NCBI GenBank assembly: GCA_025055285.1
Contig: JANWXM010000022.1
Coordinates: 1 to 61,091 of the forward strand
Length of the DNA stretch: 61,091 bases
Origin: Saprospiraceae bacterium
GTDB lineage: Bacteria; Bacteroidota; Bacteroidia; Chitinophagales; Saprospiraceae
Direction of reading: 5' to 3'
Shown here: positions 2,995-6,123 of the stretch, piece by piece
Position numbering within the stretch: position 1 is the first letter of the stretch
Layout: every line of letters starts with the position of its first letter
Translations under genes and position numbers: made by a program
Notes under the pieces: generated by a model
Databases searched by the model: none
Seen by the model: only the letters and a program-made list of their open reading frames with translations
What the model was told of the DNA's origin: nothing

Positions 2995-5900
2995 ATGGAG
3001 TATCAACCGCGTTTGATTGAAAAAAAATGGAGTGAATGGTGGAAAAAACACCAGGTCTATCGAGTGTCCGAACGACCAGATAAACCTAAGTTTTACATTC
3101 TCAACATGTTTCCCTATCCCTCTGGAGCAGGGCTACACGTAGGCCATCCCTTGGGATACATCGCCAGCGACATTATTGCCCGCTACAAGCGCTTGCGAGG
3201 TTTCAATGTCCTTAACCCGATGGGGTTTGATGCTTTCGGCCTACCTGCAGAGCAGTACGCCATTGAAATGGGCATCCATCCAGCCGTGTCTACAGAGGAA
3301 AACATTCGGCGCTATCGCCAACAACTGGAAAACATTGGCCTGAGCTTCGACTGGAGCCGCGAAGTACGCACCTGCGACCCCAAGTACTACAAATGGACGC
3401 AATGGATCTTCTCGTTACTTTTTCGACATTATTACGACTACGATGCCGACAAGGCACTGCCCATCGAAGATTTGGTAAAGAGGCTTGAAAAAGAGGGCAA
3501 TGCAAATATTCGAGCGGCATGTGACGACGACACTCCTACCATCACGGCACAACAGTGGAACGATTTTTCCGAAAAGGAAAAGCAGCTCTTCTTACTTAAA
3601 TATCGCCTGACCTTTCCGGAGGAGTCCTTCGTCAACTGGTGTCCAGCGCTAGGCACGGTGCTGTCTAACGACGAAGTGAAAGACGGAGTGAGTGAGCGAG
3701 GCGGCTACCCCGTAGAGCGCAAGCGCATGAAACAGTGGAGCATGCGCATTACTGCCTACGCCGAGCGCCTTTTGCGTGGCTTAGACGAAATCCAGTGGCC
3801 TGAAGCCATTAAAGATCAGCAACGCAACTGGATCGGTCGCTCGGAAGGTGCCATCGTTCGTTTTCCGGTACAGGGCCACGATGGGCTCTTCATCGAGATT
3901 TTCACTACGCGTGTGGATACTATTTACGGAGCGACTTTCATGGTGCTAGCTCCTGAACATGAACTCGTCTCCATAATCACTACACCTGCTCAGCGGCCTG
4001 AGGTTCAGCTTTATTTAAAATGGGTAGCTTCCCGTTCAGAGCGCGAACGCATGGCAGAGGTTAAGCGTGTCACCGGGGTCAATACAGGTGCATTTGCCAT
4101 CCATCCGATAACGGGTCAGACAATCCCTATCTACGTAGCTGATTACGTGTTAGTTGGATACGGAACAGGAGCCATTATGGCCGTCCCAAGCGGCGACCAA
4201 CGCGACTGGAATTTTGCTAAGGCATTTCAATTACCGATTATTCCTATTCTAGACAGTCAAAAGAACCTCGACCAAGCTGCCGATCCTACTAAAGAAGGTC
4301 GATATATCAACTCTGGCATTATCAACAACCTCACCTTCGAAGAGGCAGTACCTGTCTTGCTGCAGTGGCTAGAGCAAAGAGGCTTGGGCAGGGCACGCAT
4401 TCAGTACAAACTTCGCAACGCCATCTTCAGCCGCCAACGCTATTGGGGCGAGCCAATACCCATTTATTGGAAAGACGGTGTACCGTATCTGTTGCCTGAA
4501 AACGAACTCCCGCTTGTTTTGCCCGAAATAGACAAATACCTCCCTACCGAAACAGGGGAACCGCCGTTGGCGCGAGCTCAGCATTGGCGCTACCGCCCCA
4601 CCCCGGAGGAAACTTACGAATACGAATATAGTACCATGCCTGGCTGGGCCGGTTCCTCGTGGTATTGGTATCGCTACATGGACCCACATAACGACGAGGC
4701 CTTCTGCAGCCAGGAAGCTTTAGCCTACTGGCGCTGTGTAGACTGGTATATTGGTGGCGCAGAGCATGCTGTAGGCCATCTCCTGTATAGCCGGTTCTGG
4801 AATCATTTCCTCTACGACCTAGGTCTGGTGCCCGAGCGCGAATTCGCTAAGAAGCTCATCAATCAGGGCATGATTCAAGGCAGATCGAGCATCATTTTCC
4901 GCGCTAAAGAGTCCTTCTACGAAGAATATCTCTGGATAAAGGTTCTCAAACCCTATCTAGATAGCTTCGGCCCTATGCGAATTCCTCAAACACTTGCCGA
5001 AGAGTCTTTTATGTACGACTTTGCCTTTGCTACCAACGACCTAGTAATCGAAGTGGTTTCTTGGAAAAAAGCCGAGAAAATCGAAATCGTTCGCCAGAGG
5101 GCCGAAGCAGATGGAAAACGCCTCCTCGTCCTTTTCACGGAAGAATTAGCAGCAGACATTAACGCGCATGAAAAGACCGCCAACCGAATCCGGCAGGCGC
5201 TGCATAGCCGTGAGCCCTTCTTCATGAGCGAACACGTGCCAGAGATAGAGCAACTCTTCGTTTCCTATGAGCTGACTGCAAAGTACTCGCCCGAGTGCTT
5301 TAGTCGCTTACATGTGGATATTTCTCTCGTCTCCGAAGACGTCCTCAACATAGAGGAAGCGCGCAAACGCCCTATGTTTCAAAAAGCCAACTTTAAAGTT
5401 GGCCCAGAAGGGCGTTTCTTGTGCACTTACGAGATTGAGAAAATGTCCAAATCGAAGTACAACGTAGTAAATCCCGACGACGTCATCGAGCAGTACGGGG
5501 CCGACTGCTTCCGCATGTACGAGATGTTTCTCGGCCCTGTGGAGACGAGTAAACCTTGGGATACCAAAGGTATCACTGGAGTACAAAGCTTCCTTAAGCG
5601 CCTATGGAGCCTTTATGTGGGTGCCGACAACACTTGGCTGGTTCAAGAGACTGAACCCACGCGGCAAGAACTCCGCGCCTTGCACCTCACCATTAAGAAA
5701 ATCACCGACGACATCGAGCGATTCTCCCTGAATACTTGTATTAGCCATCTAATGATCTTGGTTAATGAACTGCGCGACTTGAAATGCCACAAGAGAGCAA
5801 TCTTAGAGCCTTTAGTCGTTTTAATTGCACCTTTCGCCCCTCATCTCGCCGAAGAGCTCTGGCATCGCTTCGGCCATTCTACTACGGTTTGCGATGCTCA

Positions 5901-6123
5901 ATGGCCAGCCTACAATGAGCATTACTTAGAGACTGATCGGATTGTCTATCCTGTGCAAGTCAACGGCAAACTCCGAGGAAACATCGAAGTAGACGCTCAT
6001 GCCACTATACAAGAGATCGAGCAACTTGCCCTGCGACAAGATTTTGTGTTGCGCTATGCAAGAGCCAATGGCGTAAAGAAGGTTATTGTTGTACCTGGGC
6101 GCATTATAAATATCGTGGTCTGA
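2995..6123 (+). CDS. leuS: Leucyl-tRNA synthetase with an inserted nuclease-like domain
   Basis: This class Ia enzyme charges tRNA-Leu with leucine in the cytoplasm. The ATG at 2995 starts MEYQPRLIEKKW, the usual LeuRS beginning; an in-frame TTG lies two codons earlier. The HIGH signature reads HVGH at about residues 48-51 and KMSKS is at about 816-820. An editing domain and the VVNPDDVIEQYGAD segment are present. At 1042 aa it is about 110 residues longer than ordinary Bacteroidota LeuRS. The excess is one block, about residues 643-754, between MIQGRSSIIFRAKESF and FVSYEL in the strand leading to KMSKS. That block contains YDFAF...LVIEVVSW and GKRLLVLFTEE, which resembles a PD-(D/E)XK/DUF559-like fold. 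Flanking motifs are intact and in frame, so the synthetase is probably active. Confidence 0.97.
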   Translation: MEYQPRLIEKKWSEWWKKHQVYRVSERPDKPKFYILNMFPYPSGAGLHVGHPLGYIASDIIARYKRLRGFNVLNPMGFDAFGLPAEQYAIEMGIHPAVSTEENIRRYRQQLENIGLSFDWSREVRTCDPKYYKWTQWIFSLLFRHYYDYDADKALPIEDLVKRLEKEGNANIRAACDDDTPTITAQQWNDFSEKEKQLFLLKYRLTFPEESFVNWCPALGTVLSNDEVKDGVSERGGYPVERKRMKQWSMRITAYAERLLRGLDEIQWPEAIKDQQRNWIGRSEGAIVRFPVQGHDGLFIEIFTTRVDTIYGATFMVLAPEHELVSIITTPAQRPEVQLYLKWVASRSERERMAEVKRVTGVNTGAFAIHPITGQTIPIYVADYVLVGYGTGAIMAVPSGDQRDWNFAKAFQLPIIPILDSQKNLDQAADPTKEGRYINSGIINNLTFEEAVPVLLQWLEQRGLGRARIQYKLRNAIFSRQRYWGEPIPIYWKDGVPYLLPENELPLVLPEIDKYLPTETGEPPLARAQHWRYRPTPEETYEYEYSTMPGWAGSSWYWYRYMDPHNDEAFCSQEALAYWRCVDWYIGGAEHAVGHLLYSRFWNHFLYDLGLVPEREFAKKLINQGMIQGRSSIIFRAKESFYEEYLWIKVLKPYLDSFGPMRIPQTLAEESFMYDFAFATNDLVIEVVSWKKAEKIEIVRQRAEADGKRLLVLFTEELAADINAHEKTANRIRQALHSREPFFMSEHVPEIEQLFVSYELTAKYSPECFSRLHVDISLVSEDVLNIEEARKRPMFQKANFKVGPEGRFLCTYEIEKMSKSKYNVVNPDDVIEQYGADCFRMYEMFLGPVETSKPWDTKGITGVQSFLKRLWSLYVGADNTWLVQETEPTRQELRALHLTIKKITDDIERFSLNTCISHLMILVNELRDLKCHKRAILEPLVVLIAPFAPHLAEELWHRFGHSTTVCDAQWPAYNEHYLETDRIVYPVQVNGKLRGNIEVDAHATIQEIEQLALRQDFVLRYARANGVKKVIVVPGRIINIVV
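4921..5256 (+). other. In-frame inserted domain within leuS (PD-(D/E)XK-like)
   Basis: These 336 bp encode the roughly 112 residues that interrupt the conserved LeuRS sequence. Candidate acidic positions are Asp675 (YDFAF) and Glu686 (LVIEV), followed by a lysine-rich WKKAEK helix and the strand GKRLLVLFTEE. The order matches the strand-strand-helix-strand core of VSR/DUF559-type nucleases, but the lysine expected two residues after the Glu is missing (E-V-V). The domain may therefore be inactive or bind nucleic acid without cutting. The boundaries are estimated from remembered Bacteroidota LeuRS sequences and could be off by 5-10 residues. Confidence 0.6.

Follow-up and report, generated by a model that had tools for sequence, protein, structure and literature searches.

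A predicted DUF559/Vsr-like nuclease domain inserted in the leucine-specific domain of a Bacteroidota leucyl-tRNA synthetase

The leucyl-tRNA synthetase (LeuRS) encoded in the window, the whole stretch of 61,091 nucleotides analysed in this work, contains about 110 extra residues, in frame, in its leucine-specific (LS) domain, and sequence comparison with related inserts identifies them as a DUF559/Vsr-like PD-(D/E)XK domain. In the reading that we tentatively prefer, without giving it quite an even chance, a DUF559/Vsr-like domain was inserted in the LS loop of a Bacteroidota LeuRS and has since been domesticated, so that it would now form a separate lobe, most likely without the usual cutting activity, and tune the LS domain. 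We refer to inserts like that of the window, which lack the classical active-site lysine, as window-type or lysine-less, and to those that have it as lysine-type; every insert examined falls into one of these two motif classes.

The leuS gene occupies positions 2995 to 6123 of the forward strand, as do all features below, and encodes 1042 residues from its ATG; an alternative in-frame start, TTG, lies upstream at 2989. The protein matched TIGR00396 with an E-value of 1e-278 and a score of 927 bits, above the equivalog cut-off of 548.4, which classifies it as a bacterial LeuRS. It is the single LeuRS of the source genome, where the next-best match scored 33 bits. The CP1 editing domain is present, and the HIGH-type motif HVGH (residues 48-51, positions 3136 to 3147) and the KMSKS loop (residues 816-820, positions 5440 to 5454) are both intact. 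The inserted domain (residues 639-752, positions 4909 to 5250) lies ahead of KMSKS, between the LS-domain stretch MIQGRSSIIFRAK (positions 4870 to 4908) and LS-domain sequence reading QLFVSYEL...LHVD (positions 5251 to 5319). Its junctions are SIIFRAK-insert-EQLFVSYELTAKYSPECFSRLHVDI, with FRAK extending to residue 638 and QLFVS starting at residue 753. Direct comparison with an insert-less relative (L042) showed a continuous LS sequence without the approximately 110 residues. The initial annotation had described an in-frame block of this size before KMSKS, which proved correct, but had bounded it at 4921-5256, whereas the insertion proper spans 4909-5250. Relatives without the insert have a shorter LS domain that contains nothing nuclease-like. 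Unrelated extra LS length was seen in two sequences from other families of the order (L045 and L046), with 117 and 141 residues between the LS start and KMSKS. An intein was rejected, as there were no recognisable splice-junction residues and the LS domain carries on through the sequence on either side.

Searched alone against Pfam, the block from the window matched only DpnII-MboI (PF18742), at an E-value of 0.1 and 12.5-12.7 bits against a gathering cut-off of 27. This family matched 15 of 23 window-type members at E-values up to 1 (best 0.001). A sequence search of the PDB with the window-type profile gave two matches, to unrelated molecules, with a best E-value of 1.1. The identity of the domain emerged through the lysine-type LS inserts, of which 10 distinct sequences were found in five genera of the family besides the window's own and in one of another family. 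These read DFA...[IL]E[IL]K, and 10/10 keep the first-helix E, the D, the E and the K. Pfam recognised DUF559 in eight of the ten at E-values up to 1 (best 1.2e-7), and their best PDB sequence match was the endonuclease-like 3hrl (E 0.001). When the LS flanks were removed and only the cores compared by hhalign, the window type aligned with the lysine type at a probability of 97.1%, against at most 7.5% in 60 permuted controls, and the lysine type with DUF559 at 98.4%, against at most 4.9% in 60 permuted controls; 13 segments of the LeuRS body, serving as further controls, reached no more than 2.9% against the former pair and 3.3% against the latter. Direct alignment of the window type to DUF559 gave 12.6%, with controls at or below 2.8%. 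Because the lysine-type relatives match DUF559 and also align with the window-type core, the insert is assigned, by homology through these intermediates, to the PD-(D/E)XK domains of the DUF559/Vsr kind. The VSR/DUF559-type domain proposed in the initial annotation was thus supported indirectly, through lysine-bearing LeuRS relatives, the window's own matches lying below the Pfam cut-offs.

An AlphaFold model of the insert, built from an alignment of three sequences, had a core of helix-strand-strand-helix-strand, with two and not three strands between the core helices; its pLDDT of 51 falls short of the confident fold, with D675 facing E686, to which the initial annotation had looked. The best two PDB matches of this model in Foldseek, 3r3p (I-Bth0305I, E 0.09) and 3hrl (NGO0050, E 0.23), were not significant, and a model of the whole LeuRS (pLDDT 31) was not used. 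Besides the LS-type insert, the phylum search returned 12 matches, all but one (L075) with PD-(D/E)XK-like motifs: seven resembled DUF559 and one Vsr, one was DpnII-MboI and two were DUF559 domains in the CP1 domain of LeuRS. Five of the seven matches obtained outside LS inserts in the family search were likewise PD-(D/E)XK-like, namely three AAA proteins with a C-terminal VDF...IEVK and two DUF559-like proteins; another (L102) was a LeuRS flank and one (L104) was left unread. Pfam named three of all these (L073 as DUF559, L081 as DpnII-MboI and L098 as AAA_14/DUF4143), and the remaining names were given by eye. Elsewhere in the source genome, a search for DUF559 proteins gave one match below the cut-off (E 0.06).

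Conservation was assessed in 37 distinct inserts of the lysine-less type, 33 from the genus and 4 from three other genera, over a comparison block comprising the insert and LS flanks (positions 4888 to 5307), the length of which was 140 residues in 37/37. Asp675 (positions 5017 to 5019), a metal-ligand position by homology, and Glu686 (positions 5050 to 5052), the E of E-x-K, are located at the two predicted strands, and this acidic pair is kept in all 37 sequences and in 10/10 lysine-type inserts. The first-helix acid Glu643 (positions 4921 to 4923) is found in 36/37 and is E in all ten lysine-type inserts. Ser689 (positions 5059 to 5061), Lys695 (positions 5077 to 5079), Ile696 and Lys708-Arg709 (positions 5116 to 5121) are invariant (37/37); Lys691 is replaced in three sequences (K 34, R 2, E 1). 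The classical lysine two residues after the Glu is absent from 37/37 window-type sequences and present in 10/10 lysine-type inserts. Its place, Val688 in the window (positions 5056 to 5058), is occupied by T in 26 and V in 11 of the 37, and Lys695 is a candidate stand-in for it. The initial annotation had already noticed that this lysine was missing, and its numbering of D675 and E686 was accurate.

In a tree of the inserts with a DUF559 outgroup, in which E+2 is D and not K, the lysine-less inserts formed one clade (100/100) that was nested within the lysine type by branches of 94/90 and 83/90, on a long stem (1.71). Judging from this tree, the E+2 lysine was likely lost once on the way to the window type, but an AU test does not reject the lysine-type inserts as a separate clade (p 0.25).

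The dN/dS ratio was calculated for 13 hand-picked pairs, in three of which the core was saturated, and dS exceeded 1 in several more. The core ratio was 0.05-0.13 in the 10/13 pairs for which it was computable and that of the LeuRS body 0.03-0.11 in 11/13, the core exceeding the body in 8 of 10 pairs. By these ratios the window-type inserts are shown to be under strong purifying selection. With length and residues fixed in 37/37 and a core dN/dS of 0.05-0.13, the insert is therefore a maintained part of LeuRS and not debris, and the absence of one catalytic residue while the rest are held is better accounted for by domestication or a rebuilt site than by decay. The window-type core is acidic, with a mean net charge of -7.1 and a pI of 4.85 (n=19); the mean net charge was -4.7 in lysine-type cores (n=9) and +1.7 in free-standing DUF559 proteins (n=16). 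This acidity would speak against a simple grip on tRNA or RNA, and the binding of nucleic acid, perhaps tRNA-Leu, that the initial annotation had considered gains no support here.

Among the 37 genomes of the genus, 34 were assessable, LeuRS being not found or cut at a contig end in G004, G013 and G028. The match ran through the insert in 34/34, and the insert sequence itself was read in 32 of these. An assembly artefact was rejected because of this continuity in every assessable genome. Two GenBank records of Saprospiraceae (L036 and L037) also carry the insert; they are the same DNA as G018 and G002 and therefore provide no further evidence. A genus-type profile found it in 14/396 genomes of the order, 12 of which belong to the genus, one to another genus of the family and one to another family. 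With a widened profile it was detected in LeuRS of 19/298 genomes of the family: six belong to the genus and 13 to eight further genera, in a tally that does not cover the genus codes of the 254 unlisted genomes. In family f12 it was present in 1/20 genomes, the one already found in the order search. Across 395 genomes of the phylum (E up to 0.1) the LS-type insert was found only in the window's own genome, with a profile that held two lysine-type rows and may miss distant inserts. Presence and absence at one site occur even within single genera, as in g74 (G901 with; G367 and G383 without) and g71 (G852 with; G354 without). The insert is genus-wide yet patchy across the family, a distribution that differs from the normal family variation which the initial annotation had named as the result that would count against it. 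As for a source, two scans of viral contigs yielded no relative, and searching plasmids by tblastn with one lysine-type insert as the query was likewise negative. PHROGs gave weak matches only, mostly unnamed (best E 0.0011), and PADLOC defence-system profiles a single weak match in 10 members (E 0.015).

The history of the LS region was examined in a quick tree of LeuRS bodies, from which this region was cut out, comprising 79 hand-picked rows, 28 with and 51 without the insert (16 of the genus; 60 regions taken largely from the 144 genomes of the family in which LeuRS was matched). Excluded were L153 and L158 (cut point not found), L144 (no usable frame), L074 and L078, and in L140 and L160 the LS region was probably cut at the wrong place. 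The insert label requires 11 changes on this tree, against a shuffled mean of 23.1, five of them forced by well-supported branches, and a single clade of insert-bearing bodies was rejected (AU p 2e-79). The LeuRS bodies of two genus members, G017 and G026 (L034/L053 and L035/L054), lay far from the rest of the genus, and their insert is of the genus type. An instructive pair is L135, with the insert, and L138, of the same genus and without it: they share 64-97% in the segments preceding the LS domain and 84-92% directly downstream of KMSKS, but only 14-31% in comparable LS segments, where L137 and L138, both without, share 64-73%. The frame of L135 ends early, which makes segments past about residue 880 uninformative (numbering in this comparison is LeuRS residue +18). 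The nearest counterparts of the L135 LS cassette were found in L129 and, in another family, L136; cassette scores between rows with and without the insert are lowered by the insert itself. Nuclease-free LS cassettes (L114, L147/L157 and L163) were likewise discordant with the gene body. At the level of sequence, LS cassettes are thus shown to disagree with the rest of the gene whether or not they hold the insert, and the LS history reads as one of cassette exchange or repeated replacement.

DUF559 domains were also found within other Bacteroidota genes. In two genomes of family f25, which we read as Flavobacteriaceae, the phylum search revealed one at another LeuRS site, the start of the CP1 editing domain (L074 and L078). 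A search of 199 f25 genomes gave a match at E up to 1e-6 in 66, and 30 loci were examined. Fourteen were in LeuRS CP1 at the same site (L165-L176, L180 and L187), four in frame inside RecG (L177, L178, L179 and L181), three in frame inside MetH (L182, L184 and L185) and one fused to the end of HisD (L183; HisD named by eye), and eight were free-standing. Pfam confirmed the DUF559 insertion in one LeuRS, one RecG and one MetH. At the DNA level, the ends of 12 f25 inserts commonly had G/C-rich hairpin-like stretches such as CCCCCAAAGGGGG (by eye), and inverted repeats between the two ends did not exceed 11 bases; in the protein the ends are PPxG-type or SPPQSSQRE-type stretches. It is possible that these in-frame DUF559 domains constitute a mobile element. 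Because they read D..IE[VI]DGxxH and not E-x-K in the examples read, the inserts of the CP1, RecG and MetH type are regarded as a separate event. More broadly, it is conceivable, although somewhat doubtful, that Bacteroidota host genes have been invaded by unspliced in-frame elements, each equipped with a DUF559/Vsr-type endonuclease, leuS at least twice (LS and CP1) and recG and metH as well, one such element having been domesticated in the window's genus as a functional part of the synthetase.

According to the mechanism that we favour for the window, a DUF559/Vsr-like PD-(D/E)XK nuclease domain would have entered the LS-domain loop of a Bacteroidota LeuRS and, in the window type, become domesticated as a separately folding lobe on the LS domain that most likely no longer cleaves nucleic acid as such nucleases normally do. 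With the acidic site that it has kept (E643, D675 and E686), and with S689 and K695, the lobe probably tunes the movement of the LS domain and acceptor end, or a metal or tRNA contact, the last of which we infer. In PMC5059758, the LS domain is described as buttressing the KMSKS loop, steering tRNA into the catalytic site and affecting tRNA binding; since it has these guiding and buttressing functions, an effect of the lobe on tRNA guiding is probable. FASTKD4, whose Vsr-like fold acts on RNA without nuclease activity, offers an analogy. Non-cleavage is likely and no more than that, since DUF559 proteins also lack a Lys at this place and the invariant Lys695 could serve. A rebuilt site, in which Lys695 (or Lys691) stands in for the E+2 lysine and a working metal-dependent nuclease within LeuRS acts on tRNA or DNA, is nevertheless unlikely in our view. 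It would agree with the retention of D675, E686, S689, K695 and K708-R709 in 37/37 and E643 in 36/37, with the low dN/dS, with the E, D and E-x-K kept in 10/10 lysine-type relatives and with the IE[VIL]D of free-standing DUF559 proteins, which have no Lys at E+2 either. However, E+2 is T or V in 37/37, neither K nor the D of DUF559, K691 varies, and an active nuclease within an essential enzyme would require control.

A selfish, unspliced homing cassette, the nuclease of which cuts insert-less leuS so that repair copies the LS cassette and it spreads from species to species, would make the window a late, decayed or domesticated stage; we consider this quite unlikely, in spite of the patchy occurrence (13 genomes from outside the genus in the 298 of the family, and 1/20 in another family), the scattering of insert-bearing LeuRS bodies (11 changes; AU p 2e-79), the likeness of L135 and L138 outside the LS domain and their unlikeness within it (14-31%), the DUF559 domains in frame in LeuRS CP1, RecG and MetH, and the precedent of an unspliced endonuclease insertion in ShiLan (PMC11855218). 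The discordance does not demonstrate homing, because nuclease-free LS cassettes (L114, L147/L157 and L163) are equally discordant; a nuclease is not needed for it, which weakens the nuclease as the driver of LS exchange. Moreover, no target site was found and the window has no flanking repeat, and lysine-less domains persist in 34/34 assessable genus genomes. A neutral passenger, inserted long ago and tolerated in a surface loop without doing anything other than fold, seems improbable. In this family the LS domain does differ greatly in both length and sequence, and AgnB2 and H. pylori LeuRS are active without an LS domain (PMC5059758). Neutral tolerance is hard to reconcile with the lack of any length change among 37 sequences, a dN/dS of 0.05-0.13 and polar site residues kept in 37/37.

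If the domesticated lobe is real, it would clearly exemplify how a foreign enzyme can become a structural component, here as a nuclease-derived domain fixed where an essential synthetase guides its tRNA. Nature provides a graded set, from LeuRS without an insert through those with an E, D, E-x-K insert to those with a lysine-less but otherwise frozen one, in which the absorption of such a domain by a housekeeping enzyme can be tested directly; should the lysine-type inserts cut DNA, they would amount to unspliced homing within a housekeeping gene of bacteria. In the titles and abstract beginnings of the open-licence PMC papers listed we found no description of such a LeuRS insert, nor an open-licence PMC paper joining DUF559 with a tRNA synthetase.

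Among known systems, the DUF559 (PF04480) proteins, such as NGO0050 (PDB 3hrl), share the D...(I/V)E core and are homologous through the lysine-type LeuRS inserts (98.4% by hhalign). Most of those read have IE[VIL]DGxxH, whereas lysine-type inserts have E-[IL]-K and the window type E-V-[TV]-S; DUF559 proteins are free-standing, while the window-type domain lies inside LeuRS and is acidic. The DpnII-MboI restriction endonuclease (PF18742) matches 15/23 window-type members weakly, and the window type has E-V-[TV] where L081 has E-V-K. As for Vsr and the EDxHD homing endonuclease I-Bth0305I (PDB 3r3p), the low-confidence model has its best Foldseek match there, without significance (E 0.09); the window insert shows no sequence match to them and no sign of a DNA-recognition part. 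The RAP domain of FASTKD4, a mitochondrial RNA binder, is described in PMC11879112 as a Vsr-like nuclease fold without nuclease activity and with a role in RNA maturation. It has a positively charged cavity, whereas the window insert is acidic and lies inside LeuRS. The LS domain of LeuRS, which guides tRNA according to PMC5059758, hosts the insert before KMSKS. Finally, the ShiLan insertion in a phage methylase, as presented in PMC11855218, bears an endonuclease and keeps the host frame open, with no splicing domain detected; there an HNH nuclease is read out of frame in a phage gene, whereas the LeuRS insert is read in frame with its host.
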